Below are positions 141-32,080 of a stretch of DNA of 32,080 bases, in pieces. The translations under genes were made by a program, and so were the position numbers. How positions within the stretch are numbered: position 1 is the first letter of the stretch; the number at the start of each line of letters is the position of its first letter. The stretch covers positions 1 through 32,080 of the IMG/VR virus record IMGVR_UViG_3300048930_000059. One strand, 5' to 3'. The DNA comes from a virus. The notes under the pieces are model-generated. The model saw nothing but the letters and a program-made list of their open reading frames with translations, was not told the DNA's origin and ran no database searches.

Positions 141-276
141 AAGCGTGGCGCGGCTTCCAGCATTTTTGCTGTCCCATTCATTTTTTTCATAGATGCCTCG
201 CAAGCCACGAACGGCGCGGGGTCTGTTTTCCATTGGGACAGTTTTAGACCGGTCAAACCCGGTAGCGCTACGCCCC

Positions 277-299
277 ATGCCGGGGTATATTCCGGGCAT
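277..299. repeat. 23-bp near-palindrome overlapping the start of the 57-aa gene
   Basis: The sequence from 277 to 299 is a hyphenated palindrome centred on 288, with outer arms ATGCC and GGCAT and a TATA centre. Most of its symmetric positions match. Two smaller perfect palindromes lie just upstream: GACCGGTC (247-254) and GTAGCGCTAC (262-271). It covers the start codon at 298, so a DNA-binding dimer there could control that gene. Confidence 0.4.
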
Positions 300-471
300 G
301 GTTCTGGAAAACGTCATCGTGTTATTGGTCCTGGTAGTGTGCACTATCCTTGCTGCACCGCGTGTCGATGACAGTCGCTTCGGCCAGCCCTGGGTGCCAG
401 AATGGCTGTACCTCATCGCCATTGCCGGCATGGTTGGATCCCTCGGCTACATGGCCTGGTCAGTCCTCTAA
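298..471 (+). CDS. Small two-helix membrane protein, 57 aa
   Basis: Unrecognised. From the ATG at 298 the product begins with a hydrophobic helix (about residues 4-19, VIVLLVLVVCTIL), then a short polar loop with DDSRFGQPWVPEW, then a second hydrophobic helix (about 35-56), ending in WSVL. This helix-loop-helix layout is what a small inner-membrane protein looks like. An in-frame ATG at 277 would add seven residues. No good ribosome-binding site precedes either start, which lowers confidence. It is the only plus-strand gene at this end and converges on the 2001-aa gene, overlapping its stop by 12 bases. It may be a lysogeny or host-range accessory gene, or a holin-like protein; the function is unknown. 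Confidence 0.5.
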   Translation: MVLENVIVLLVLVVCTILAAPRVDDSRFGQPWVPEWLYLIAIAGMVGSLGYMAWSVL

Positions 472-3400
472 CTCCTGACGCTGGCTGTACGGCGTGCCAA
501 ACAGGACGTGACTCACCGCTTCCCCAAAATCATCCGCTGTTGCCAGCGCCTCGGTGTACATCACCACCTGGTAGGCCGGCAGCCAAGTAACCAGCGTCAT
601 CGCTTTTGCAATGTTCCTGATATCCGTCCAGTTGCCCTCGCCGGTCAGCCAGTCGTAAGCGCCACCGGATGCGCCGACCAGTGATTGCACCACCTGATCC
701 AGCGGCGTGCTGGGCGCTTGCCAGTCTCGCGTGGCCGCAGAGTAGACATCCCTGAAGATTGGTACACCCGCCACATAGCTGGAGGCGATGCGCGTGGCCA
801 GGTACGGCACGAGGTCGTCGTCATCGTCCTCGTCGTATTTCAACAGGGCTTCCACCAGTGCCGGCACCAGCACGATGTACAGGTTAGCCGCGGCGAACTT
901 GCCCAGGGATTTGGCGCGACCGTTCGGGCCTTCTCCCTTGATGAAACCCTTGATCAGATCCTGGCGCCCGGTCATGCGCAGCTGGTTGTGCTGCACGCTG
1001 AAGTAGGTGTAGAACAGCGTCACCAGCTTGGCCAGTTCATTGCCCTGCTGCAGGCCGGCCAGATCCTTCAGGCCACCACCGGACTGCGTCTGGCGCACGG
1101 TGGCGTCGGCGTACTGCACGGACTCCGCAACAGTCCTGCCCTCGCCCTGCGCCTTCTCGTGGGCCGCCAGCCAGGTTGCAGCGTTGATGTGCTTTTGCAC
1201 GGCGATGATCAAGTAAAACGCCTGGTCTTTCACCCAATGCAGCGCCTCGGTGCCGGGATTGCGCCGCATGATCTCGACGGCGTTGTCGGTGAACTCTCGG
1301 ATATCGCGGTCGATCTGGCTATCCAAATGCCGCAGCTCCGGGCTGGCGTCGAGCGCACGCTGGTAATCAGGGTGGACCTTGGCCTGCCCCATGGTGCCGA
1401 CACGGCCATAGGACAGCTTCAGCAGCCAGCTGGCCATGTTGAGCGCGCCTACCTCCTTGGCCGCGGGCCCGGCGCCGAGTACCTGCATGGCGGCGCTGGA
1501 TACCTTCCAGCCCAGGCCCAACAGGGATCCGCCGAACCGCGCGCGGCGGAAGATGGTATCCATCGTCTTGCTGGCATCGTGCGAGGTCTGCGCGATGGTG
1601 CCATTGGTGGCGATGTTCTGCAGCCAGGAGCGCAGCTGCTTGTAGCCATTGGCATCGAAGTAGGACTCATACATCGCACGGAATTCAGACTTGCGGCGCA
1701 GCTTGTCGAAGTTGCGCACGCTCTCGTAATGGGTGATGTAGTGCACGACCTGGTGCAGGTGCTGGGGCAGGCCGGCAAAGTCGAGACTGATCACACCCCC
1801 GGCGCCGGTCATCCGGCTTTTGGTCATGGACTTGGACACCTGCCCGGTGATGGGGCTCGGGCCCATGTCGATGCTGTTGGACTCCTCGAGCACGGAAGCC
1901 TCGCGGGTGCCGATCGCATCCTGGTACTTGACCGGGTAGTACCACCCCGACAGCTCGACGCCGTACTTGGCCAGGTACAGTGGCTTGGCTTCCACCTTGG
2001 GCGGGCGGACACCGTCGACGCGCTCGGACACCGCGGCCATCGGTTCGTACATCCTGTCGATCATCTGGCCCAGCGCTTCGATGCGCCGGAAATCCTCCAG
2101 CGTCAGTTCGTCCTGCAGTTTCGCCAGCACCTCGCGCTCCTGCCCCTTCCAGCGCCGGGAGAACAGGCGATCCCAGTTGCCCTGGTTGCCCATGTTCAGC
2201 GCGACCACGTACAGGTCGCCGCGGTTCAGCGTGGTGCCCAGGAAGTTGATCGACTGGTTCAGGCGCTGCGCATCCTTGCGCGTGAGCGTTCCCATGATGG
2301 ACTGCAGTTCAGCCACGGAGGTCGAGAGCATTTCCTCCTTCGCGTTCTGTGCGTCCACGAACGGCTGGAAGATAGTGCGGTGCCACTTGCCGACGATATC
2401 CCCATCAGCGAACCGGCATTCAAACTCGATCTTTCGCAGGCTGGCCAGGAAGGAGGAGAACGCCTTGGTCAGCGGCGAGCGGTGGTCGACGTCGTATTGA
2501 TTGATCTGCTTGGCCGTGAGGTTGGCCGAGGCGACCGCGTCCAGATCCTCGATGACCTGTGCCATCTCGACCAGTTCACCTTCAACGCGCACCTTGTTGG
2601 CATCCCGGCCCTGCTTGGCCAGTGCGGCCACAGAGCTGTCCAGCGCCTCCAGCTGCTCCAGCGTCATCTCCTTGTAGTTGACCAGGTCGGCACCGTCGTA
2701 CAGGGCGGGATCGATCAGCACGGTCTCGCCCTGCGCTTCCATCGCCTGCACGTACTGCGCCAGCCGGTTGCGGGCATCGATCTTGGTGAGCGCGGTCTTT
2801 TTCAGCTCGACGCCGGCCAGCAGCGCCTCGATGCCATTGGCGGCCATCGGGTCGCCCTTGCGGATCGCCTGCATCACAGTGGCAGAATCGTACTTCTTCA
2901 GCTTGCGCCGGATGAGGTCCGCCCGATCGACGGCCATGCGCGCCTCGCGGTACAGGTGGTGATTCAGGAGCTGCTGCTGCTTGAGCTGTGCGGCTTCCTC
3001 AAACTTGCCCGCTGCTACGGCCTCCTGTGACGCTCTGGCGGCTTTCAGTTCTGCCTGATAGTAGGAGTGGGGCCTGATCTGGCGCAGCTTCAGGCGCGCT
3101 ATGTGACGCCGTGCGGCCTCCTTCGTGGCCTGGTTCAGAGTGACGTTGTCTTTCCTGCCCAGCTTGCGGTTCATCGCCCGGGCCTCGGCCACCAGAAAAT
3201 TGGCCATGGCATTGTTGTGCAGCGCCAGGGCGGCGCGCTCAATGGTCTCGGTGTCCTGCGCCATGTTGCCGAATTCTTCATCCAACTGGGCCTGCACCTG
3301 GTTGCGGATGACCTCGGAGCTCGGAGGTGCAGCGATTATCTGCTGGACCATCTGGTATCCAGACTCGAACCCGTACAGATCCGCGAACACATCCGGGTGC

Positions 3401-15106: not shown

Positions 15107-16306
15107 TTATGGCGCAGTAACGGACGGCGCTTTGGTCTGGCACACTGTCCAGTACCAGGTTTCACCGGCAGTTCCGGCTATATTCAGCGACCCAAAAAGT
15201 CCTATGAAGTCCCCAACTGTGTATGTGAATCCAGATTCACCGGCTGTTGCCAGAACAGCAGTGCCCAGCCTCCCGGTATATTGGTACCAGTACATCACGG
15301 TTGCCGACAGGAACTTGGAGTTATCCGCGTTTCGGGCGTAGATGAGCAGCTGGCCATTACCGATGAACCCAGCTTCAATGGTAAATGCTGCTGTGCCTAC
15401 TGATGATCCCGAAAGAAATGCTTGATACACATGGTCCTTTCTTTGAGCCACAGACACAGGCCCAACAAGGGCGGCTTGCGCGCAATCCTCACCGATGAAG
15501 CAAGAGGCGTCACCGAGGAAGTGGACTCCATCCTCTTCTCGGCCTTGTGTGCTGACAAAACTGCTGTGTGGAGCCAGCAGCTGTGCGAGCTGCCAGTGAG
15601 CGCTCCAGGGTCCCCAGTCATCGCCAATATTCACGATGATGTTGTGGGTGTAGTTCGGGGTAGACCATCCACCAGCCCAGGCATGGGTTGTTAATATGGT
15701 TTTCACGGTGTCGGCGTAAGAAAACGCGGGTGCTCCTGCGGTCTTATCCGACTCGCCTTGCAGCCACACCAGAATGTCGACTTTGGTGACGCCTGCCGCT
15801 GCCATGGCGGGACCGATTTGCGCGGCCAGTTCGACGTTGCAAGTGCCTGCCGGTTGCCATTTGGAGGCGTTGGCACCGTACTCGGTGACGCTCAGAACAT
15901 AAACCCGGCGACCCGTTGCCTTTTGCAGCATGTTCGCCATGGCCCATGCTGGACTGCCGGCAGGGTTGCCACCTATGGCTCCGCGCATACCGACGGCTGC
16001 CGTTCCGCCTACAGGAGGAACCCAGCCTCTCGATGGGTCGGACACATTCCAGGTGTAGGATGAGGAGCCAGTCGGGGCGTTCCAGTCAAACACCTCGGGA
16101 TTGATTGTCGTGTCATAGGTCAGCGCTACATTCTGGCCCAAGGCGTTGGATTGGCCGGTGAATAAAACAAATATGGGCTCACCCACAGGCTTCAAGCGCA
16201 GCCGGGAAGCGCCCAGCGCAGCCCGATACAACTCGTCTGTATTGCCGTTTATCTTGTTTCGGACAACAAGCCCATCTTCACCGTTGTTGATTGTTTGCCT
16301 GGTCAT
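15107..16306 (-). CDS. Tail protein with SGNH/sialate O-acetylesterase domain, 399 aa
   Basis: The N-terminus (QTINNGEDGLVVRNKINGNTDELY in two blocks, residues 4-27) is the short leader found on many phage tail-fibre proteins. Residues 45-263 form an SGNH hydrolase of the sialate-O-acetylesterase type: block I TGQSN (nucleophile S53), WLQGESD (181-187) and the Asp-His block DGVHF (D259, H262). It would remove O-acetyl groups from a surface polysaccharide. The last ~110 residues are beta-rich and may form the attachment or carbohydrate-binding end. The ATG at 16306 follows AAGGGA. It is the first long gene after two small tail-associated genes, and probably acts on the virion surface against capsule or O-antigen. 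Confidence 0.8.
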   Translation of the reverse strand: MTRQTINNGEDGLVVRNKINGNTDELYRAALGASRLRLKPVGEPIFVLFTGQSNALGQNVALTYDTTINPEVFDWNAPTGSSSYTWNVSDPSRGWVPPVGGTAAVGMRGAIGGNPAGSPAWAMANMLQKATGRRVYVLSVTEYGANASKWQPAGTCNVELAAQIGPAMAAAGVTKVDILVWLQGESDKTAGAPAFSYADTVKTILTTHAWAGGWSTPNYTHNIIVNIGDDWGPWSAHWQLAQLLAPHSSFVSTQGREEDGVHFLGDASCFIGEDCAQAALVGPVSVAQRKDHVYQAFLSGSSVGTAAFTIEAGFIGNGQLLIYARNADNSKFLSATVMYWYQYTGRLGTAVLATAGESGFTYTVGDFIGLFGSLNIAGTAGETWYWTVCQTKAPSVTAP

Positions 16307-23963: not shown

Positions 23964-24056
23964 TCACCTCCACCACACGCCAATAACAATAGCGACCAAC
24001 AACAGCCCCGCCGACAGAATTAATAAAACTGCAGCCAGCGGCACAATCAGGCTCAC
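23964..24056 (-). CDS. 30-aa single-helix membrane peptide
   Basis: A tiny gene starting with GTG at 24056 and ending TGA at 23964. The product is MSLIVPLAAVLLILSAGLLL followed by VAIVIGVWWR: one unbroken membrane helix with an aromatic-basic end. Its GTGA start overlaps the rusA stop exactly, and its last codon and stop form the ribosome-binding site of the next gene (GGAGGTGACATG), so it fits neatly into the operon. No homologue can be named. Small phage membrane peptides of this kind include holin-like, antiholin and superinfection-exclusion proteins. Confidence 0.6.
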   Translation of the reverse strand: MSLIVPLAAVLLILSAGLLLVAIVIGVWWR

Positions 24057-24673
24057 AGTAGCGCCGCCTGGTTGTGCGCACTGTGCGGCGCGCTGATTGG
24101 TGTGAGGGTCACGACGACGCGCCCGGGCGCAAGTTTCGGGTGCATGCGAATGTGCAGGTCGATGATCTGGCTGTCGTCGGTGTACAGGCCGGCAGCGCCC
24201 AGCGCATCGAGCAAGCCCTTGCAGTAGTTATCGCAATCCCGGCGACGGTTGCAGGGCGGGTGCAGGTCCACTGTGCAGGCGATGGGCCCGGAGAACTTGT
24301 GTGTGATGTTCTCGACCAGGAACTGCTCGTGCACGGCCTGTTTGTAATTTCGCCCTTTCTCGGAAATCAGCGTGCGTGCGCGCTTGCCGATTGTGATGTG
24401 CCGCCAGTAGGTATTCACGCTGGGCGGAAATGGCAGCTCGATTGTCAGCCCTTGCGCTTGCGCTCCCCCGCGATCCTGATGTGCGTCTCGACCATCGCCC
24501 GCAGGTGCGGGGGAACTTGCTCCAGTGCTGCGCGGCGCGCTTCCAGGCTGGGCAGTGCCATGATCTGAGCTGCCCACTGCCGTGGCCTGGTCTCCGGTGG
24601 TGTATCCATGCGCCTCCGCTATCCGGTCGATGACGCTGGGCAGGATTTCGCTGATGTGTCGCGGGCCCATCAT
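24053..24673 (-). CDS. rusA: RusA-family Holliday junction resolvase with N-terminal extension, 206 aa
   Basis: The C-terminal ~125 residues are RusA: LPFPPSVNTYWRH near the start, then RDCDNYCKGLLDAL and YTDDSQIIDL. Counting from ATG 24673, D146, D148, K152 and D167 have the same spacing as the catalytic D70, D72, K76 and D91 of E. coli RusA. The enzyme cuts four-way DNA junctions symmetrically. The N-terminal ~75 residues are odd: the first 25 (MMGPRHISEILPSVIDRIAEA) look like real protein, but the next 50 are low-complexity Gly/Ala/Ser/Pro, because the DNA there encodes another protein in a different frame (24445-24609). Translation could start at 24673 (ATGA overlap with the helicase gene), or a shorter RusA could start at the CTG overlapping the stop of the internal gene. 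Confidence 0.75.
   Translation of the reverse strand: MMGPRHISEILPSVIDRIAEAHGYTTGDQATAVGSSDHGTAQPGSAPRSTGASSPAPAGDGRDAHQDRGGAQAQGLTIELPFPPSVNTYWRHITIGKRARTLISEKGRNYKQAVHEQFLVENITHKFSGPIACTVDLHPPCNRRRDCDNYCKGLLDALGAAGLYTDDSQIIDLHIRMHPKLAPGRVVVTLTPISAPHSAHNQAALL
24445..24609 (-). CDS. 54-aa gene overlapping the rusA frame
   Basis: A different minus-strand frame, from ATG 24609 to TGA 24445, encodes MDTPPETRPRQWAAQIMALP then SLEARRAALEQVPPHLRAM and VETHIRIAGERKRKG. This is a well-formed helical, Arg-rich protein resembling small phage proteins with a repeated ALP/VP...R pattern. In contrast the overlapping rusA frame is low-complexity there. GCGGAGG precedes the ATG at good spacing. Its stop is embedded in a CTGA, just where RusA proper (LTIELPFPPS) begins. 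Function unknown. It may also be joined to the upstream peptide (MMGPRHISEILPSVIDRIAEA) by a +1 shift. Confidence 0.6.
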   Translation of the reverse strand: MDTPPETRPRQWAAQIMALPSLEARRAALEQVPPHLRAMVETHIRIAGERKRKG

Positions 24674-25629
24674 TGTGCAGCCCTCGCTCTCTGGATATTT
24701 AGGGGAACAGCTGCGCGATCGGATCGAGCCGTAAACTGCATGCTCGGGTGTATCCACAAACTGATCTTTCCTTCAAAACTCCCGTGTCGCTGTTTGGCAA
24801 CAATCAACAACTGGTCAGGCTCGTTGTCGTACTGATCCTGCTCCGCTGACGATAGTGTTCCGCCATGATCCAATCGATTTTGCAAATCACGTTTTTTCTT
24901 GTTGTTCCAGCAAATGAACAGGGTTGACGCGAGATCGACAATCGCGCCATTGCCCTTTACGTCGAATCGAGAGGGTACGTGCGTGTCATCCCCTTTCTGC
25001 GGCTTACGGACGTGATGAACCAATGCGACATGAATTTTCAGGGACTTGGCCAACGCTGTCAGCTGAGCCATGAATTTGCGCTCACGTTCCATGTCGTCCG
25101 AGACGCCGCACATCATGAGCGAATCGACCACCACGAGCTTGCATCCCAGCGCCTCGCCCATGTACAAAACGCATGCCAGCACCCTGGCTGCCGGCACAGT
25201 GTCCAGGCGGTTGTAAAACCACATCCGGTCACTGGCCCATGCGATGAAGCGCTCCGCGTATTCGGGTGATGTTTTGGTTGTGCAGGATGCCTGCTGAACC
25301 ATCCGCCGAAGTGTAGCGGCAACAGGCATCTCGAAGGAGGCAATTCCAACAGTCACATCCTGCGCGGCATGTATCGCGACCTGCCCCAGCAGCATGGATT
25401 TCAGGTGGCCATTGATCCCGGCCCATACGGAAACCTCTCCGTCACGGAGCCGGACCTTGTCGTGTGTCTTGCTCCAGGGCAGTGTGATCCCGGTCAGCAC
25501 TTCGCCGCTCTCAAAGAATTTCACTACATCCGCGCGAAACGTGTCTGGCCTGACGATGTCCTGCGACTCCTGCTCGGCCAGGAATTGCGCGACACGGTTA
25601 TCATCAAAATCCCACTCTCGGATGTTCAT
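24670..25629 (-). CDS. DnaB/RecA-fold replicative ATPase (helicase-like), 319 aa
   Basis: RecA-like ATPase core. The P-loop region VSVWAGINGHLKSMLLGQ (67-83) is in the Walker A place but has Leu76 where the conserved glycine is expected before K77-S78. The catalytic-Glu strand is SFEMP (E100), Walker B is LVVVDSL (D169), and HVALVHHVRKP follows as the sensor-like strand. There is no N-terminal primase or DnaB N-domain: 60 residues precede the core. It follows the DUF1376 initiator gene with a 4-base overlap, the initiator-helicase pairing common in temperate phages, so it probably acts as the phage replicative helicase or its loader. Confidence 0.75.
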   Translation of the reverse strand: MNIREWDFDDNRVAQFLAEQESQDIVRPDTFRADVVKFFESGEVLTGITLPWSKTHDKVRLRDGEVSVWAGINGHLKSMLLGQVAIHAAQDVTVGIASFEMPVAATLRRMVQQASCTTKTSPEYAERFIAWASDRMWFYNRLDTVPAARVLACVLYMGEALGCKLVVVDSLMMCGVSDDMERERKFMAQLTALAKSLKIHVALVHHVRKPQKGDDTHVPSRFDVKGNGAIVDLASTLFICWNNKKKRDLQNRLDHGGTLSSAEQDQYDNEPDQLLIVAKQRHGSFEGKISLWIHPSMQFTARSDRAAVPLNIQRARAAQ

Positions 25630-26300
25630 AGGGCTCCTGCAAATGGCGTGTTTTGGGTTGATAATGATTCAGCCTTGCGCCGCGAATCCCATGTGCGCAC
25701 AGCAGCCTTCCAGTCGGACATCTTCGTACCGCTGCTGAGCTTCCAACCTCGTGCCTGGTAGAAATCCACGAAATGCTCTGCCGTGAAGTGCGTGATGGAC
25801 TTCTCGCGAAGATATTCGCTGACGGTTTCAGTGGTTGGTGGTGTGAAGTTTTTCCGGGGTGATGCGCCAGCATCACTATGTATATTGGTTATTGGTTTAT
25901 GGTTATTGGTTAGCTTTGCGTCCGCTTTTTTCTGGGTTAGGGTTGGGTTAGCTAAATTAACCACCTTGGTTTTTTTGGGTTTCGGTGGCCTGCCGCCCTT
26001 GCTACCATTGACTCTCGCGGCTTCTGACTTTCTGTGAAAATATGAGATTTCGCGCTCGATTCTGCCATGCACCCAAAATTCACCCTCTAAAACAAAGAAT
26101 TCTTGCAGCACATTTATCAACGAATTTTCATTTTCAGAACCCAGACGTAACCTACGCAAAACCCCTGGGTTATTTTGGGTTATCGGCTTCTCGTCAAGGT
26201 AATACCAGTCGATTAATTCGCGGTAGATGTAATGCTCCATCGGAGACAGGTGTCCCGTGTCTTTCCGGTAGTCGGCAATGTTGAATTGGTAGTAGTGCAT
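25626..26300 (-). CDS. DUF1376 (YdaU-like) replication initiation protein, 224 aa
   Basis: Residues 1-95 are a DUF1376 winged-helix-like domain: MHYYQFNIADYRKDTGHLSP, MEHYIYRELIDWYYLDEKPI, VLRRLRLG and a long helix to SYFHRKSEAARVNGSKGG. A basic linker (RPPKPKKTK) and an Asn/Thr/Lys-rich stretch (ANPTLTQKKADAKLTNNHKP) follow. The C-terminus, TAEHFVDFYQARGWKLSSGTKMSDWKAAVRTW over two short runs, resembles the C-terminal domain found on several phage initiator proteins. The DNA under the Asn-rich linker contains tandem repeats (25880-25962), as expected for an origin inside the initiator gene. It is coupled to the downstream helicase by ATGA. Confidence 0.75.
   Translation of the reverse strand: MHYYQFNIADYRKDTGHLSPMEHYIYRELIDWYYLDEKPITQNNPGVLRRLRLGSENENSLINVLQEFFVLEGEFWVHGRIEREISYFHRKSEAARVNGSKGGRPPKPKKTKVVNLANPTLTQKKADAKLTNNHKPITNIHSDAGASPRKNFTPPTTETVSEYLREKSITHFTAEHFVDFYQARGWKLSSGTKMSDWKAAVRTWDSRRKAESLSTQNTPFAGAL
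25880..25962. repeat. Tandem A/T-rich repeats inside the initiator gene; candidate replication origin
   Basis: GGTTATTGGTT occurs at 25887-25897 and 25901-25911, with a 14-bp period, preceded by a partial copy. GGGTTAG follows at 25934-25940 and 25945-25951 (11-bp period), then an inverted pair GGTTA/TAACC (25946-25962). The patch is much richer in A and T than its surroundings. Lambda-type phages keep their origin as iterons within the initiator gene, so this is a reasonable origin candidate. Confidence 0.45.
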
Positions 26301-26304
26301 AAGG

Positions 26305-26664
26305 CTATTTGGATGCCTCTTTTTTGGACTGCCATTGCCTGCGAAGCGCCTCCGCCTCCGCCTCCAATTGCCAGGGCTCTAGCGTCTTACCTTGCGCCCT
26401 GTCGTACGCGCACATTTCCAGCGCGAGGCGGTCCAATTCGTCACCAGCTTCACGAGCCACATCCTCATCAGCTGCTGGTTCACCCAGATCATTCACGATC
26501 AGAAAACCCGTCTCAGAATCGGTGTAAAACGCCGGAATGTCGGCAAAAGCCTTGTGTCTGCGCATCATGAATAACCCCTCTTCGCCCCTAATCCGCCGAC
26601 GCACAAACGCCTTCACTTCGCTCTGCAACTGTTGGCGGGTCAGCGCGCCAGCTTCGTTGGCCAT
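26305..26664 (-). CDS. Unknown early protein, 119 aa
   Basis: Not recognised. It is a charged, soluble, helical protein with an Arg-rich N-terminal third (VKAFVRRRIRGEEGLFMMRR), a beta-like centre (ETGFLIVNDLG) and an acidic C-terminal helix (DEDVAREAGDELDRLALEMC). It starts with TAATG overlap from the CII-like gene and ends two bases before the DUF1376 gene, so it belongs to the replication operon. It may help replication or host takeover, but nothing in the sequence proves it. Confidence 0.6.
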   Translation of the reverse strand: MANEAGALTRQQLQSEVKAFVRRRIRGEEGLFMMRRHKAFADIPAFYTDSETGFLIVNDLGEPAADEDVAREAGDELDRLALEMCAYDRAQGKTLEPWQLEAEAEALRRQWQSKKEASK

Positions 26665-27023
26665 TAGGATTTCCCCCTCAGCGCGGCTAGCCTGGCTTCC
26701 AGCTCCGCGATCTCGTCGCTCTTATCCCCGCCGAATTTGTCCAGCAGGTAGTACAGCGGCTTCAAGTCCTTTTGCGTTTCCAAGTACCGCTCCAAGTCCT
26801 CGATAGTGAAGTTGCGCGGGTCGTTCGGATTGTCGGACAGCTTGCGTGTCAGTTCGGAGGGGCTCAGATCCATGTCTGCAGCGACGTGCTTCTTCGGCAC
26901 ACCTTTGTCGCGGTACAACCCGGGTATTGCCTCTTCCCGCATGTACTCCTTCAGCGTCGCGCATTGCGCGCTGATTCCAGCTTCGAAATTCAGCGTCATT
27001 TGGGTAGTGGAAAGTACTGGCAT
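26664..27023 (-). CDS. CII-like transcriptional regulator, 119 aa
   Basis: Residues about 40-70 form a helix-turn-helix: GVPKKHVAADMDLSPSELTR then KLSDNPNDPRNFTIEDLERY, followed by LKPLYYLLDKFG and a short coiled C-terminus (ELEARLAALRG). The DLSPSELTRKLS core is typical of CII-type regulators and relatives in temperate phages of Proteobacteria. It is the first gene after the terminator that follows the cro-like gene, the same place as lambda cII, so it probably helps switch the phage to lysogeny by activating a repressor or integrase promoter. The annotated ATG lacks a good ribosome-binding site; M9 is an alternative start. Confidence 0.65.
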   Translation of the reverse strand: MPVLSTTQMTLNFEAGISAQCATLKEYMREEAIPGLYRDKGVPKKHVAADMDLSPSELTRKLSDNPNDPRNFTIEDLERYLETQKDLKPLYYLLDKFGGDKSDEIAELEARLAALRGKS

Positions 27024-27057
27024 AAATTATTCCGATAGTTTCCGGTAGATGTTTCGT

Positions 27058-27086
27058 TACAAAAAAACCCTCAAAGCAGAGGGTTT
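27058..27086 (-). terminator. Rho-independent terminator between cro-like and cII-like genes (tR1-like)
   Basis: The minus-strand RNA forms a perfect 8-bp stem AAACCCTC/GAGGGTTT with a 6-nt loop, followed by a run of T (27067 to 27061 in the complement). It lies three bases after the cro-like stop and before the cII-like start. In lambda the terminator tR1 holds the same place, so later genes probably need anti-termination or leak-through. Confidence 0.85.
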
Positions 27087-27088
27087 CG

Positions 27089-27286
27089 TTATGCCGCAGC
27101 TTCTTCGCCGTACTTCGCTGACAGGTAGGCGTGTAATTTTTCGATCTTGGTCACGCCCGGGTCAGCGATGAGCCCTTGCGACAGCTTGGAAATCCACTCG
27201 CGACCCAGCCCAGTATCGGCAGCAGTCTGCGGCCACTGGCCTTTATCGCGATCAAGTAGCTCTATGGTTTCAGTCAGCATGCTCAT
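27089..27286 (-). CDS. Cro-like DNA-binding protein, 65 aa
   Basis: First gene of the minus-strand early operon, divergent from the repressor. The product MSMLTETIELLDRDKGQWPQ continues with TAADTGLGREWISKLSQG, a short helix-turn-helix, and ADPGVTKIEKLHAYLSAKYG, which resembles the end of Cro/CI-type headpieces. The frame is open to 27346, but ATG 27286 has AAGG at suitable spacing and lies just after the promoter TTGACC-18-TATACT. It would bind the same GTAA-N4-TTAC operators as the repressor to shut down early transcription. Confidence 0.7.
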   Translation of the reverse strand: MSMLTETIELLDRDKGQWPQTAADTGLGREWISKLSQGLIADPGVTKIEKLHAYLSAKYGEEAAA

Positions 27287-27296
27287 GGTGTACGCC

Positions 27297-27324
27297 TTGG
27301 GTAAACTTTTACGCAGAGTATATG
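27297..27324 (+). promoter_or_regulatory. Possible repressor promoter (PRM-like)
   Basis: TTGGGT (27297-27302), 16-base spacer, TATATG (27319-27324) on the plus strand, with O1 inside the spacer. It overlaps the early promoter on the opposite strand. The match is modest, but this is where a repressor-maintenance promoter is expected. Confidence 0.4.
27301..27312. promoter_or_regulatory. Operator O1, GTAA-N4-TTAC
   Basis: GTAAACTTTTAC, a 12-bp dyad fitting GTAA-N4-TTAC. It lies just downstream of the -10 of the minus early promoter and within the spacer of the proposed repressor promoter, so binding would block the early promoter and also affect repressor transcription. Confidence 0.7.
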
Positions 27325-27346
27325 GACGCAACCACAGTGCGGTCAA
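27317..27346 (-). promoter_or_regulatory. Early (PR-like) promoter of the minus operon
   Basis: On the minus strand: -35 TTGACC (27346-27341), an 18-base spacer, -10 TATACT (27322-27317). Operator O2 abuts the -35 on its upstream side and O1 lies directly downstream of the -10. The next gene start is the Cro-like ATG at 27286. This is a strong sigma70-type match and the obvious start of the operon leading to replication genes. Confidence 0.75.
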
Positions 27347-27358
27347 GTAACTTTTTAC
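27347..27358. promoter_or_regulatory. Operator O2, GTAA-N4-TTAC
   Basis: GTAACTTTTTAC, adjoining the -35 box of the minus early promoter. It is 46 bp centre to centre from O1, allowing co-operative binding across the promoter. Confidence 0.7.
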
Positions 27359-27384
27359 GCAGTGTTGGTGTTAGTGTTTTTTCC

Positions 27385-27744
27385 ATGCCGCCCAAGCGCC
27401 CCAATACCAGCGACACGCTCGCCAGGAATCTAAATTTCCTGATGGATCACTACGGGTACAGTGAGCGCGAAATGGAAAAGCGATCCGGTGTGTCAGCCAA
27501 AACCATCAACAACATGCGCAACGGCAAGCACAAGGCCACGATTGAAAATACCGATAGTGTCGCCGCCGTGTTCGGGCTGGACGGCTGGCAGATGATTATC
27601 CCTGGCCTGCCAGACGACCTAATCGGCTCGAAAACACTAAAGGTCACGATTGCAAACTACGTGTCATCTGATGAGGATGGCCGTAAGAGCATTGATAAAA
27701 TGGCCGAACGCGAAGCCCTCTACAACACCACGAAAAAGCATTAA
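27385..27744 (+). CDS. CI-like repressor, short form, 119 aa
   Basis: Residues about 10-70 make a helix-turn-helix of the XRE type: LARNLNFLMDHYGYSEREME, KRSGVSAKTINNMRNGKHKA, then SVAAVFGLDGWQMIIPGLP. The C-terminal ~45 residues are charged and helical (SSDEDGRKSIDKMAEREAL). No S24/LexA-type Ser-Lys peptidase domain exists, so RecA-triggered self-cleavage is not expected. The frame is open from 27322, but MPPKRPNTSD (ATG 27385) is the likely start, though its ribosome-binding site is weak. It stands between operator pairs and is divergent from the Cro-like gene, the layout of a lysogeny repressor. Confidence 0.75.
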   Translation: MPPKRPNTSDTLARNLNFLMDHYGYSEREMEKRSGVSAKTINNMRNGKHKATIENTDSVAAVFGLDGWQMIIPGLPDDLIGSKTLKVTIANYVSSDEDGRKSIDKMAEREALYNTTKKH

Positions 27745-27758
27745 TCCCACCTTGAACT

Positions 27759-27792
27759 CGCCGCCTTTTCGGGCGCGCTAAAAACTTTTTTT
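27759..27792 (+). terminator. Possible terminator after the repressor gene
   Basis: A GC-rich hairpin (CGCC and GGCG arms around a TTTTC-containing loop, about 27760-27776) is followed after about eight bases by TTTTTTT (27786-27792). The stem is short and the T run somewhat distant, so it is a weak candidate. Confidence 0.35.
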
Positions 27793-27801
27793 GCATCCCG
27801 C

Positions 27802-27813
27802 GTAAAAAATTAC
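27802..27813. promoter_or_regulatory. Operator O3, GTAA-N4-TTAC
   Basis: GTAAAAAATTAC, directly abutting the -35 TTGACG of the plus promoter. Flanked by GCG on the left, as are O2 and O1 on the other strand. Confidence 0.7.
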
Positions 27814-27842
27814 TTGACGACCTCGGATTCCTTGCGTAATTT
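27814..27842 (+). promoter_or_regulatory. Promoter of the plus-strand accessory operon
   Basis: TTGACG (27814-27819), a 17-base spacer, TAATTT (27837-27842). O3 abuts the -35 and O4 overlaps the -10, matching the layout of the minus early promoter. The first gene begins at 27874 behind AAGGAGAG. Repressor binding should silence this operon in a lysogen. Confidence 0.65.
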
Positions 27843-27847
27843 GTTAC
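27836..27847. promoter_or_regulatory. Operator O4, GTAA-N4-TTAC
   Basis: GTAATTTGTTAC, overlapping the -10 box of the plus promoter; 34 bp centre to centre from O3. Binding would directly exclude RNA polymerase. Confidence 0.65.
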
Positions 27848-27873
27848 TCAACACCACCGGCAAGGAGAGCAGC

Positions 27874-28086
27874 ATGAACCGCCGCAGCAACTGGACACAG
27901 CACAAACTGAACGACGGCCAATTGATCCGGCTTTCGCAGCTCGCTAACGGACGACCGAATAACGCAGGTATGGCAATGGTCGCCCTGGTAAACAAGGGGC
28001 TGGCAATTAACAAAGGGCGCGGTCGTGCCGAGGTAACTGAGGCTGGACGCGAGGCACTTGCTCAAGCGCGCAAGGAAGGCTGGTGA
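27874..28086 (+). CDS. Small winged-helix-like protein, 70 aa
   Basis: MNRRSNWTQHKLNDGQLIRL begins the product, then LSQLANGRPNNAGMAMVALVNKG in two helices, LAINKGRGRAEVTEAGREAL as a likely wing, and a final basic helix. The NKGLAxxxxGRxExTEAGxxAL pattern is typical of small MarR-like winged helices. The frame opens at 27814, within the promoter; ATG 27874 has AAGGAGAG before it. First gene of the plus operon. It may regulate early transcription, but the partner is unknown. Confidence 0.65.
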   Translation: MNRRSNWTQHKLNDGQLIRLSQLANGRPNNAGMAMVALVNKGLAINKGRGRAEVTEAGREALAQARKEGW

Positions 28087-28217
28087 TGAACCGCCGCCAG
28101 TCACACAACCCGCACAACTTCGATCCCGAATTTGATGTCGCCTTCTTCCCGCTGCTGATCACGTTCGTGTTCGCGGCCACCGGAGCATGCGTCCTGCTTG
28201 CGAGCGTGCTGCTATGA
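28086..28217 (+). CDS. 43-aa membrane protein
   Basis: A short gene, ATG 28086 to TGA 28217. The polar start MNRRQSHNPHNFDPEFDVAF leads into a single membrane helix, FPLLITFVFAATGACVLLAS, ending VLL. It overlaps the previous stop by one base (TGATG) and the next gene by four (ATGA), which strongly supports translation. No family was recognised. Confidence 0.6.
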   Translation: MNRRQSHNPHNFDPEFDVAFFPLLITFVFAATGACVLLASVLL

Positions 28218-28486
28218 GACTCCCCGACCTGATTGAAATGACCGGCGCTGTAGCCAGTGGTGACTGCCAACTGTCCTGCGCCTTCGACTTCCAACCCGCA
28301 GAGCCCGAAGTCAATTGCCCTGCGTCTGTGACGCTGACTGCCGCGTATCGCGTAGGCCAGGGCGACGTAATGGGGGCCATGTCTCAGGACGAGATTGAAG
28401 TTCTTGAGGAAGCACTGCTGATAGAAGTGCAGGCCCTCATCGCCGAGGACTACGAAATGCAGCAGGACTGGAGGTACTACGCATGA
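28214..28486 (+). CDS. Unknown acidic protein, 90 aa
   Basis: Not recognised. It has a beta-rich first half (MRLPDLIEMTGAVASGDCQL, VNCPASVTLTAAYRVGQGD) and an acidic helical second half (SQDEIEVLEEALLIEVQALI). Four-base overlaps on both sides place it firmly in the operon. There is no membrane segment or catalytic motif. The acidic, small, accessory nature would suit a DNA-mimic or inhibitor, but this is speculation. Confidence 0.6.
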   Translation: MRLPDLIEMTGAVASGDCQLSCAFDFQPAEPEVNCPASVTLTAAYRVGQGDVMGAMSQDEIEVLEEALLIEVQALIAEDYEMQQDWRYYA

Positions 28487-28671
28487 TTGTTGCACGCACA
28501 GTGGAACCACAGATCGGCGGCTATTGGCTCGCAGCCGGTGAAGCCTACGGGCGAGTCATTCTGGCCGAGGGCGAAACGCGCGTCGAGGCTATGAAGGCAT
28601 GGACGAGCAGCGCCGCCGACCGGCAGGCAAAGATGATGGAATTGGAATTTCGGAAAAGGAGAGTGTTGTGA
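28483..28671 (+). CDS. Unknown small protein, 62 aa
   Basis: A short protein with a beta-like start (MIVARTVEPQIGGYWLAAGE) and a basic helical end (KMMELEFRKRRVL). No family was recognised. It is linked to its neighbours by ATGA upstream and GTGA downstream overlaps. The gene for the exonuclease begins within its last codons, so it may be co-translated with that enzyme. Confidence 0.55.
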   Translation: MIVARTVEPQIGGYWLAAGEAYGRVILAEGETRVEAMKAWTSSAADRQAKMMELEFRKRRVL

Positions 28672-29573
28672 CTGCTATTGAAACAATTGATGCACCCGTA
28701 CAGCGCCCGCAGTACACACCAGGCTGGTACCGCGACCTGACCAACGAGGAATACCACGGCAGCAGCGGCTACTCCTCAAGCCAGATCAAGACACTGATCG
28801 AGCAGACGCCCGCTCACTTGCTGCACAGCTTCACTGTGCAGAAGGAATCCACGGCCAACATGCTGCTGGGTACTGCGGTCCACGCGCTGATACTGGAGCC
28901 GGAAAAGTTCCACGGTGAGTTTGCCATTTCGGAGAAGTACGACGGCCGCACCACTGCCGGGAAAGCGGCTAAGGCGCACTTCGAGGCGGGCGCTGTCGGC
29001 AAGACGATCATCACCGAGGACATCTACGAGAAGGCGCAGAAGATGGCTGCGTCCGTCCTGAATCACCCGATTGCCGGCCTGCTGGTGCAGGACGTGATTA
29101 CCGAGTCATCCGTGTACTGGTGGTACAAGTCAATGGATGCCGACGACGACACGCGCTACAAGATCATGGCCAAGGTGCGGCCCGACATCCTGTGCCGCGG
29201 CTACCCGGTGATCGCCGACATCAAGACCACTGCCGATGGCTCCTACTCGGGGTTCATCAAGTCCATCCAGAATTTTTACTACCACGTCAGCGCCGCCATG
29301 TACCTCGAGGGCGTCAACCAGTGCAAGCCGCTGCTCGACGAAATGGGCCGCATGGCGTTCACCAAGTTCGTGTTCATTTGCGTGGAGAATTTCGAGCCCT
29401 ACTTGACCAGCGCCTACGAGCTGTCACCGGAGTACCTGGACATCGGCAAGCTGCTGTATCGCCGATCCATGCGCACGCTGCGTGATGCGCTGGAGGAAGG
29501 ATTCCCTGGCTACCCCGAGGAGGTGCGCATCATCGAGCCGCCCACCTGGGCGTCGCGCGGATTTGTTGTTTGA
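28668..29573 (+). CDS. RecE-like 5'-3' exonuclease (PD-(D/E)XK), 301 aa
   Basis: A nuclease of the RecE C-terminal/YqaJ-like PD-(D/E)XK superfamily. Motifs: YSSSQIKTLIEQTPAHLLH near residues 35-53; GTAVHALILEPEKF (68-81, H72); KVRPDILC with D173; IADIKTT with D184 and K186, the D-x-K pair. A Tyr-rich helix (FYYHVSAAMY) follows, as in this family. The reaction is degradation of one strand of linear duplex DNA from its 5' end to expose 3' single strands for annealing. The ORF is open from 28599, but the GTG at 28668 has GGAGAG before it and a 4-base overlap with the preceding stop. Confidence 0.8.
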   Translation: MTAIETIDAPVQRPQYTPGWYRDLTNEEYHGSSGYSSSQIKTLIEQTPAHLLHSFTVQKESTANMLLGTAVHALILEPEKFHGEFAISEKYDGRTTAGKAAKAHFEAGAVGKTIITEDIYEKAQKMAASVLNHPIAGLLVQDVITESSVYWWYKSMDADDDTRYKIMAKVRPDILCRGYPVIADIKTTADGSYSGFIKSIQNFYYHVSAAMYLEGVNQCKPLLDEMGRMAFTKFVFICVENFEPYLTSAYELSPEYLDIGKLLYRRSMRTLRDALEEGFPGYPEEVRIIEPPTWASRGFVV

Positions 29574-29604
29574 TCACCACCCCAACCACAGGAAGGAAAC
29601 CGTT

Positions 29605-30729
29605 ATGAACTTACCAGCAGCAAGAGCAGAGAACCCCTTCGGCAACCAGGTCGCTACCGAAAACCAGAACGCCCTCGTGCAGTCAGGATCGCAGCGCGAG
29701 ATACAGGAAGTGCAGGCCGCTATGGTGATCGCCAAGAAATTCCCGCGCGATTCCATGCGGGCGATGGATCGCATCATCAATGCCTGCACCCGGCCCACGC
29801 TGGCGCAGAGCGCGCTGTATTCATATCCGCGTGGCGGGCAGGAAGTCACCGGCCCCAGCATCCGGCTGGCCGAGGCGATGGCGCAGGAGTGGGGCAACAT
29901 TCAATTCGGCATCCGCGAACTGTCAGCGGAGAACGGGAACAGCACCGTGGAGGCGTTCGCTTGGGACATGGAAACCAACACCCGTCAGGTGAAGGTATTC
30001 CAGGTTGGGCACACGCGGTACAGCCGCAACGGAGGCAACCAGAAGCTCACCGATCCGCGTGATATTTATGAGCTGGTGGCCAACCAGGGCGCACGACGAT
30101 TGCGCGCCTGCATCCTCGGCGTGATACCCGGCGATGTGACCGAGGCCGCAGTGCAACAGTGTGAGGTCACACAAGCCAGCACCATCGAGGTCACGCCCGA
30201 AGCGATCAAGAAAATGCTGGAGTATTTCGCTGATAGCTGGGGCGTCCCGCAGGAGTTGATCGAGAAGCGCATTGGCCGGCGCGCTGATGCGATCAATGCC
30301 CCGCTGATGCTGAACCTGCGCAAGATCGTGCAGTCGCTCAAGGATGGCATGAGCAAGCCCAGCGACTGGTTTGACATCGACGCGGCCACTGAGACTGTAG
30401 CTCCGAAGGTCAGCGATCTGAATGCCGACCTTGGCGCGAAGAAAGCGGCGAAGAAGAAGGCCCCTGCTGCCACTGATCCCGACAAGCCCGCCGACGAAGC
30501 ACCAGCCCCGAAGCCCGAACCCGAGCCCGAGGAATTGCCCCTGGCCGCAGAGACCACCTACGCCGACGTGATGGCCGCGATCAATGCGGCTGACTCTCCG
30601 GAGACGATGGAAGCCGCCAAGAAACTGATGATGGACTTCTGCAGCATCGAGGCCAACGAGCAGTTTCAAACAGAACTCGGCGCGCACTACCGCTGGAAGC
30701 TGTCGGAGTTGAAGGGCAAGCAGTCGTGA
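29605..30729 (+). CDS. Probable phage recombination protein, exonuclease partner, 374 aa
   Basis: A conserved phage protein with a recognisable core: REIQEVQAAMVIAKKFPRDS, DRIINACTRPTLAQSALYSYP, VTGPSIRLAEAMAQEWGN, then ELVANQGARRLRACILGVIP and AAVQQCEVT. The core (about residues 25-200) is followed by a lysine-rich then Glu/Pro-rich linker (278-314) and a ~60-aa helical C-terminus. The family has no firm function that I know of. Direct placement after a RecE-like exonuclease suggests a single-strand annealing or ssDNA-binding role like RecT or Red-beta, with the C-terminus contacting host SSB or similar. The start ATG 29605 has AGGAAGGAAA before it; the ORF is open from 29482. Confidence 0.7.
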   Translation: MNLPAARAENPFGNQVATENQNALVQSGSQREIQEVQAAMVIAKKFPRDSMRAMDRIINACTRPTLAQSALYSYPRGGQEVTGPSIRLAEAMAQEWGNIQFGIRELSAENGNSTVEAFAWDMETNTRQVKVFQVGHTRYSRNGGNQKLTDPRDIYELVANQGARRLRACILGVIPGDVTEAAVQQCEVTQASTIEVTPEAIKKMLEYFADSWGVPQELIEKRIGRRADAINAPLMLNLRKIVQSLKDGMSKPSDWFDIDAATETVAPKVSDLNADLGAKKAAKKKAPAATDPDKPADEAPAPKPEPEPEELPLAAETTYADVMAAINAADSPETMEAAKKLMMDFCSIEANEQFQTELGAHYRWKLSELKGKQS

Positions 30730-30902
30730 ACAAAGTGCAACGCAAGTTCGTTTTGGATGCTCTCGATTAGGAGCACAAGTTGAGCGAGTGGGAGCACCAA
30801 TTCATCAACGACCTTGCCGAGCGCGATGAACGCAATCCCGACATGGTTTTGTCGGAGAAGCAGAACGAAATTTTGAACCGCATCCAGCGGAAACTTGACT
30901 AG
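30726..30902 (+). pseudogene. Small gene split by an in-frame amber codon (58 codons plus stop)
   Basis: One continuous frame from GTG 30726 (GTGA overlap with the preceding stop) reads MNKVQRKFVLDALD, then TAG (30768-30770), then EHKLSEWEHQFINDLAERDE and onward to RIQRKLD and TAG at 30902. The parts before and after the amber read as one helical protein, so the TAG looks like an interruption of codon 15. The downstream part also has its own ribosome-binding site and TTG start (30780). It may be a broken gene, a readthrough gene, or two coupled short genes. Confidence 0.55.
30780..30902 (+). CDS. 40-aa charged protein from a TTG restart
   Basis: Starts at TTG 30780 with TAGGAG eight bases upstream, in frame with the 14-codon reading frame before the amber. 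Product: MSEWEHQFINDLAERDERNP, then DMVLSEKQNEILNRIQRKLD. It is a two-helix, strongly charged protein with the LSEKQNEILNRI pattern common in small phage proteins. This is the only part likely to be made if the amber is not suppressed. Function unknown. Confidence 0.5.
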   Translation: MSEWEHQFINDLAERDERNPDMVLSEKQNEILNRIQRKLD

Positions 30903-30912
30903 GAGCAGCAAC

Positions 30913-31275
30913 ATGCGACAACTCGACGACCACAAGGTAAACCCCGCGAACGACACGCTGACTGTGACAGTGTTGGATGAGCCAGGGCAAGGAGGCGCCT
31001 GCCACGAGTATGAAGTCAGTCACCCCGGAATGCCCTCAACCCGTATCAGTTTCCAGAACGGGCCGATTAATGCGGACGGTAACGGCGTAAACGGTTTGAC
31101 CCACGAGGCGCTGCTGGCGATTGTCGCCGACAGGCTGCGCAGTTTCCAGAAAGGGCCGTACTCCTGCAAGGCAAACGCCTGCGCGCTGACCCACATCGAA
31201 GAAGCCCAGCATTGGTTACAGCAACGCACACTCGAAAGAATGCGACGCGGCGTCGAGGGAACGCACACAGTATAG
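30913..31275 (+). CDS. Acb2-like anti-CBASS protein (cyclic-nucleotide sponge), 120 aa
   Basis: Residues about 44-120 match the Acb2 (Acb2/Tad1-type) domain: RISFQNGPI (44-52), GVNGLTHEALLAIVADRL (58-75), a FQKGPYSC loop (78-85), ALTHIEEAQHWLQQRT (91-106) and the terminal RRGVEGTH (111-118). In that family, small helical hairpins assemble into hexamers that bind the cyclic di- and trinucleotides made by CBASS and so stop abortive defence. The first ~40 residues (DDHKVNPANDTLTVTVLDEP and on) are an extension also common in phage homologues. ATG 30913 has GGAG before it; the frame is open from 30895. The assignment rests on pattern recognition without alignment. Confidence 0.75.
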   Translation: MRQLDDHKVNPANDTLTVTVLDEPGQGGACHEYEVSHPGMPSTRISFQNGPINADGNGVNGLTHEALLAIVADRLRSFQKGPYSCKANACALTHIEEAQHWLQQRTLERMRRGVEGTHTV

Positions 31276-31325
31276 CCCCAGCTTCTTATAATCAGTTTTG
31301 GTGGGCCGGTTTAACCCCAACCGTG

Positions 31326-31353
31326 CCGGTGAATGGCGCCGGTCCGCTTTTTT
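31326..31353 (+). terminator. Possible terminator/leader region after the Acb2-like gene
   Basis: CCGGTG (31326-31331) and CGCCGG (31337-31342) form a 6-bp stem with one T-G pair and a 5-nt loop; after TCCGC comes TTTTTT (31348-31353). A perfect TATAAT (31287-31292) lies further up in the same gap, but its -35 region is weak. The gap may therefore end one transcript and begin another for the gene at 31369. Confidence 0.4.
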
Positions 31354-31368
31354 ATTCAGGAGAACACC

Positions 31369-32080
31369 ATGTCAGAAGCAGCAGTAGTCATTGAGCAAAC
31401 CACCTCGACCGGCATAGTCGAGTTCAACCAGTTCGAGCACGACCTGGCCGAATACAAGAAGCGTTATGAACTGGTCGTTTATGACATGACCGTGCCTGCG
31501 CAGGAGAAGCAGGCCCGCTCTGATCGCCTGTCTATCGGCAAGAAAGTTGCCGAGCTGGACCGGGTGCACGCAGCTATCAAAGCGCCACTGAAAGCGAAGG
31601 TGGATCTGTTGGATGGCGAACGCAAGCGGATCAAGGACGGACTGCTGCAGGTACAGGAGGGCATCAAGTCGCAGATCGCCGCGCACGAAGCGAAGCTGCA
31701 GGCGATCGAGGACGCGCTGGTTGCGCGCGTGGATGCGATCAAGGCGCTGGCTGTGTTTGAGTTCCCGCCCACTTCCGACCAGGTAATGACGCGCCTGCGA
31801 GAGCTGGGCAAATTGGTGATAGATGAATCGTTTGCTCACCACGCAGCGGACGCGCTGGCGGCGCGCAAGAGTAGCGCTGTCTTGCTGGATGCACTGTATG
31901 ACCAGGTATCACAGCGGGAAGCCGAGGTTGAGGAGCTGGCCCGACTGAAAGCAGAGGCCGAGATCCGTGAACGCGAGGAGCGCGAGGCCAAAATCGCTGC
32001 TGATGCTGCCGCCAAGGCGAAGCAGGAAGCGGAGGCTGCTATTGAGAGCGCGCGTCAAGCCACGCTGGCAGCTCAACAGG
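31369..32080 (+). CDS. Coiled-coil phage protein, partial (runs off the window), at least 237 aa
   Basis: ATG 31369 follows CAGGAGAACACC and the frame stays open to the window edge. After a short start (MSEAAVVIEQTTSTGIVEFN) the product is almost entirely helical and charged: EHDLAEYKKRYELVV, RLSIGKKVAELDRVHAAIKA, KVDLLDGERKRIKDGLLQVQ, and later a Glu/Ala/Arg-rich coiled coil (EIREREEREAKIAADAAAKA). Proteins of this appearance lie next to recombination genes in many temperate phages and are often called nuclease-inhibitor-like or TolA-like, without proof. The function is unknown and the end is missing. Confidence 0.7.
   Translation, partial: MSEAAVVIEQTTSTGIVEFNQFEHDLAEYKKRYELVVYDMTVPAQEKQARSDRLSIGKKVAELDRVHAAIKAPLKAKVDLLDGERKRIKDGLLQVQEGIKSQIAAHEAKLQAIEDALVARVDAIKALAVFEFPPTSDQVMTRLRELGKLVIDESFAHHAADALAARKSSAVLLDALYDQVSQREAEVEELARLKAEAEIREREEREAKIAADAAAKAKQEAEAAIESARQATLAAQQ

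Follow-up and report, generated by a model that had tools for sequence, protein, structure and literature searches.

Does the gene at positions 30913 to 31275 (plus strand) of the window, the 32,080-base virus record analyzed here, encode an Acb2-type anti-CBASS protein, as a sequence-only reading had proposed, or a member of another family, and how is it controlled? The open reading frame is a real gene: it has 120 codons and an AGGAG site, and phage and prophage DNA encodes more than 65 relatives along its full length. All three motifs highlighted by that reading (GVNGL-THEALLAIV, FQKGPYSC, and RRGVEGTH) are present in it. An alternative TTG start is listed six codons 5′ of the ATG. The ATG at 30913 is favored because the Shine-Dalgarno-like AGGAG (30903 to 30907, plus strand), recognized from the sequence, lies a few bases 5′ of it and because most relatives start with M-R-x-[LI]. 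Just 5′ of the gene is a 40-aa open reading frame, orf30780 (30780 to 30902, plus strand; TTG start; LSEWEHQFINDLAERDERNPDMVLSEKQNEILNRIQRKLD), which weakly resembles phrog_7521 (E = 0.002). A megablast search with window positions 24001 to 32080 gave no match in a set of 50,697 named phage records.

Relatives of the protein are encoded on 6 bacterial and 65 viral contigs, the closest of them full length and up to 82% identical. Named phages contribute 108 more relative records, all below 60% identity, one of which is a Bacillus protein annotated as Tad1 (Thoeris anti-defense 1). The best PHROG match is PHROG 2428 (2.2e-31), a family of unknown function, and an NCBIfam search of the protein returned no match. 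The Pfam model PF24729 (Acb2_Tad1_hairpin) scores the protein at 16.2 bits, under its 27-bit gathering cutoff, and 37 of 40 relatives match the same model at E values up to 1, the best at 2e-6. The placement in the Acb2/Tad1 hairpin superfamily of phage nucleotide-signal sponges was borne out by the Tad1 matches described below, the sponge role itself being putative.

Within this superfamily, the protein is almost certainly of the Tad1 type. A phmmer search of the PDB with the window protein retrieved Clostridium botulinum prophage cbTad1 (1.7e-19), CmTad1 (9.5e-17), and phiKZ gp184 (6.7e-10), and all credible matches were Tad1; a profile built from 40 relatives gave the same three proteins at 6e-28, 9e-27, and 3e-21, respectively, and nothing else credible. 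Neither the sequence nor the profile matched any Acb2 chain in the PDB at E values up to 10. The search was able to find such chains, as a positive control with T4 Vs.4 retrieved 7uq2, the structure of T4 Vs.4 itself, and gave weak matches to 8ixz and 8h2j, both of p26. We take T4 Vs.4 to be an Acb2 homologue, in keeping with its score of 71 bits against the Pfam hairpin model. By hhalign, the window family paired with the Tad1 of Bacillus phage SPG24 at 99.8% and with T4 Vs.4 at 0.7%. The Acb2 label therefore found no sequence support, and membership in Acb2 was rejected, sequence, profile, and hhalign all being negative with the positive control working.

Structure prediction led to the same family. 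The AlphaFold (AF2) model (pLDDT 88.4) has strands at residues 2 to 4, 17 to 20, 32 to 37, and 40 to 47 and helices at 64 to 80 and 86 to 111, i.e., a beta domain at about residues 1 to 47, a helical hairpin, and the conserved C-terminal tail RRGVEGTH. Four N-terminal strands and two long helices are the Tad1 fold, in contrast to that of Acb2 (PMC12043709). In Foldseek searches of the PDB, the 20 best matches were all Tad1 chains (E = 9e-10 to 5e-7), the next match had an E value of 0.39, and no Acb2 was among the credible matches; in searches of viral proteins, several matches were named Acb2/Tad1 hairpin. The TM-scores of the model to Tad1 structures were 0.69 to 0.78 with an rmsd of 3 to 5 Å, and the domain packing of the single-chain model is therefore uncertain.

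The part of the protein that had been read as a 43-residue N-terminal extension is the ordinary beta domain of Tad1, since both the family and the fold are those of Tad1. The homology to cbTad1 spans window residues 17 to 119, that is, both domains; residues 17 to 53 align with cbTad1 chain residues 16 to 60, and the N-terminal DEPGQGGACHEY pairs with cbTad1 GSEGPGGAYHEY. A new domain was likewise considered for the N-terminal part and was rejected, as both alignment and model make it homologous to the Tad1 sheet. Across 40 aligned sequences of the family, 31 of the 120 residues are invariant, and these include H7, D22, G27, A29, H31, and Y33, which means that the N-terminal part is constrained too, besides the hairpin.

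Comparison with proteins of known structure shows where the window protein is typical and where it diverges. It has the two-domain fold of cbTad1 (PDB 7uav, 7uaw, 8smd, and 8kbe to 8kbh) at about 36 to 45% identity, but the N-terminal 16 residues differ. CmTad1 (8kbb to 8kbd, with cAAA and cAAG) is about 30 to 35% identical in the fold match and has a similar tail, G-[VI]-E-G-T. The C-terminal half of phiKZ gp184 (8y6v) is homologous to the window protein, and the family profile extends to the N-terminal strands of gp184 as well; unlike the window protein, gp184 is 230 aa long with a long additional N-terminal region. With the Acb2 proteins (PaMx33 p26, 8h2j/8ixz; T4 Vs.4, 7uq2), the window protein has in common the Pfam hairpin model, the two-helix hairpin, and the type of phage signal sponge, but these proteins are 88 to 93 aa without an N-terminal sheet, whereas the window protein is 120 aa with one.

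Residues of the ligand site in cbTad1 include F82, N92, R109, and R113 (native numbering, which differs by one from that of the 7uav chain). They align with window residues F78, N88, R105, and R109, which are invariant in 57 distinct family sequences. Arg57 of cbTad1, presumably also part of the ligand site, has no counterpart in the window protein by alignment and none in the loop of CmTad1 (FQEGPIKEYGING); both proteins carry an FQ-x-GPI-...-x-NG loop lacking this arginine. Because CmTad1 was nevertheless solved with cAAA and cAAG, the absence of Arg57 is no argument against binding of cyclic trinucleotides. Tad1 binds the gcADPR made by TIR enzymes as well as cyclic oligonucleotides (PMC12043709). 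The expected ligands therefore change, and Thoeris becomes a target no less likely than CBASS.

What other explanations could account for these data? An Acb2 protein with an added N-terminal extension, which would counter CBASS by sequestering cyclic di- and trinucleotides and would have no gcADPR site, is consistent with the weak match to the common hairpin superfamily model. However, the Acb2 entries 7uq2, 8ixz, and 8h2j were searched yet unmatched, the hhalign pairing with T4 Vs.4 and the fold matches were also unfavorable, and the N-terminal domain is a homologue of the Tad1 one; we regard this explanation as very improbable. We are just as skeptical of a virion or structural function unrelated to immunity, "structural" being a label that some databases attach to phage members. 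Several phage relatives are indeed annotated as "structural protein," and some adjoin head, connector, or terminase genes, but the window gene belongs to an early operon of recombination genes, the structural genes being on the other strand, and its context is very variable among relatives, as expected for an accessory gene. In addition, solved relatives contain gcADPR, cA3, or cAAG. One such protein, phiKZ gp184, is labeled "structural" although the orf184-encoded Tad1 is credited with blocking CBASS (PMC12043709). Among the structural genes of the window, a SASA-family carbohydrate esterase gene was also seen (15107 to 16306, minus strand), perhaps encoding a tail enzyme.

A third possibility is a subhypothesis within the Tad1 assignment rather than another family: the protein could be a Tad1 by descent that has become specialized in a proteobacterial clade so that it chiefly binds one class of ligand, either cyclic oligonucleotides (CBASS and type III CRISPR) or gcADPR, and not both. 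This clade has its own N-terminal signature, H-x-[VI]-N-P-A-N-D, which is nearly invariant and is absent from cbTad1 and the Bacillus proteins; it has no Arg57 equivalent, and its beta-hairpin and loop are variable. Of five genomes carrying relatives, one, from Psychrobacter, was found to encode a CBASS-type SMODS cyclase, and no ThsB was found in any of the five. On the other hand, all four ligand-site residues are invariant, five genomes are too few, and the controls of the STALD (ThsA) search were silent, making that search uninformative. Moreover, the host of a prophage need not carry the system that the prophage disarms. Such specialization is conceivable but, in our judgment, unlikely. 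A more speculative suggestion, to which we give less credence, is that the ligand range of the proteobacterial clade (PHROG 2428) differs from that of the studied Tad1s and perhaps includes the signal of an undescribed defense in Burkholderiales and sphingomonads.

Turning to the control of the Tad1 gene, it was confirmed to lie in an operon with recombination genes. Upstream on the same strand are an exonuclease VIII-like gene (28668 to 29573; DUF3799, PDDEXK-like; phrog_412, 8.2e-73; PF12684) and a gene identified by its PHROG match to phrog_3657 (29605 to 30729), whose product, judging from its position, probably works with the exonuclease as its annealing partner. In a distant relative, L100, a RecT-like gene occupies the position of the phrog_3657 gene. 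The recombination region of this related phage also encodes a protein (L100:4164-5081) that consists mostly of near-perfect GGSIEAG-type repeats and has no PHROG match. Further upstream in the window are a CI-like helix-turn-helix regulator gene (27385 to 27744, plus strand; HTH_3, phrog_8), for which an internal ATG start was judged likelier than 27322, and a divergent Cro-like regulator gene (27089 to 27286, minus strand; phrog_9425 transcriptional repressor, 6e-8), for which an internal ATG start was also judged likelier.

The promoter that the sequence-only reading had placed at 27814 stands in part. Its −35 element, TTGACG, is present (27814 to 27819, plus strand), followed by a 17-nt spacer, but the −10 element, TAATTT (27837 to 27842), is poor and matches the consensus at only three of six positions, which is why a consensus scan missed this promoter; 27814 to 27842 is thus a candidate early promoter. 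The regulatory part of the claim fared better. The dyad GTAA-N4-TTAC occurs four times in the entire 32-kb window, compared to 0.06 expected, and the copies form two pairs. One pair is at the 27814 promoter, with GTAAAAAATTAC (27802 to 27813) abutting the −35 and GTAATTTGTTAC (27836 to 27847) overlapping the −10. The other is between the divergent regulator genes, with GTAACTTTTTAC (27347 to 27358) abutting the −35 of a divergent minus-strand promoter and GTAAACTTTTAC (27301 to 27312) downstream of its −10 (all given on the plus strand). Around the sites at 27347 and 27802 are two 18-base stretches with 17 bases in common; they are inverted relative to each other, and each abuts a TTGAC −35. 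In lambda, operators are found at pR and pL with the CI gene in between, and by analogy the operator-like layout here follows the pR/pL plan, with the CI-like gene between the two control regions. The operon is probably repressor controlled, as supported by operator-like dyads common to both of these regions.

Downstream of the Tad1 gene is a strong, intrinsic-terminator-like hairpin followed by TTTTTT (31302 to 31354, plus strand). In a sister contig, L077, the sequence covering this hairpin, the T run, and the opening codons of the next gene is 97% conserved, and the hairpin directly follows the phrog_3657 gene. It is possible that the hairpin acts as a terminator or as a control point for antitermination; Rfam gave no match in 30700 to 31500.

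Comparison with the sister contig also showed that the Tad1 gene is an accessory gene, sited just before the operon's candidate terminator. A 564-base block (30725 to 31288, plus strand) containing orf30780 and the Tad1 gene is absent from L077: the contig matches the window to 30724 and resumes at 31289, both points being adjacent in L077, and the flanks are 91% and 97% identical. The L077 phrog_3657 protein is 95% identical to that of the window, and no Tad1 relative was found anywhere in this contig, a 24-kb piece. A second junction is also present, within the gene after the terminator, which is thereby cut to a 69-aa fusion frame (L077:7201-7410); L077 could therefore have arisen by deletion or reflect faulty assembly. 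This frame comprises about 28 first codons of the phrog_1376 gene followed by an apparent exonuclease C terminus. In the sister contig (L077/L101), sequence corresponding to window positions 257 to 732 follows the phrog_3657 gene at a distance of about 5.7 kb, a placement that makes the window look circularly permuted and a few kilobases short, including an rdgC-like gene.

Elsewhere, the Tad1 gene is not tied to these operon neighbors. When nine neighboring window proteins were searched at the 71 loci of relatives, a single exonuclease relative was found (L053), and at other loci with the phrog_3657 gene or the downstream gene, no Tad1 relative was within reach (tblastn, E ≤ 1). Instead, the relatives have as neighbors genes for thymidylate synthase, DNA polymerase, exonuclease, connector, and major head or terminase proteins, a scatter that points to a moving accessory gene. 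One relative lies directly 3′ of a reverse transcriptase gene (phrog_1423; L024:3570-4991).

Taken together, we consider it very likely that the gene encodes a Tad1 that is made early from a CI/Cro-controlled pL-like promoter and works as a hexameric sponge of Thoeris and CBASS messengers. It would be produced with the recombination genes from a lambda pL-like promoter under the phage's CI/Cro-type regulators. By analogy with the solved Tad1s, three dimers of it would come together as a hexamer, and, as in the rest of the family, glycocyclic ADP-ribose (gcADPR) from Thoeris TIR enzymes would be bound uncut in the interprotomer pockets, which may also hold cyclic dinucleotides, with cyclic trinucleotides at the trimer interfaces. 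With the messengers sequestered, ThsA and the CBASS effectors would stay inactive. The Tad1 hexamer has been described with gcADPR and cyclic dinucleotides in interprotomer pockets and cyclic trinucleotides at trimer interfaces, shielding phage from Thoeris and CBASS (PMC12043709). Sponges can also be sensed, as CbTad1 triggers the Panoptes system (PMC12657218), and this may help to explain why a phage would lose such a gene or keep it regulated.

The window protein is thus a new, divergent Tad1 of a structurally known family that falls in a PHROG of unknown function and below the Pfam cutoff. This is a solid correction of annotation with modest novelty. The change from Acb2 to Tad1 alters the expected ligands and the defense systems to be considered. 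PHROG 2428, found in phages of several proteobacteria and given no function in PHROGs, would gain one, the predicted Tad1 function, from the identity of the window protein. Finally, presence or absence between close relatives, together with operator-like sites common to two promoters, makes this locus a tidy natural case of a regulated accessory counter-defense gene.
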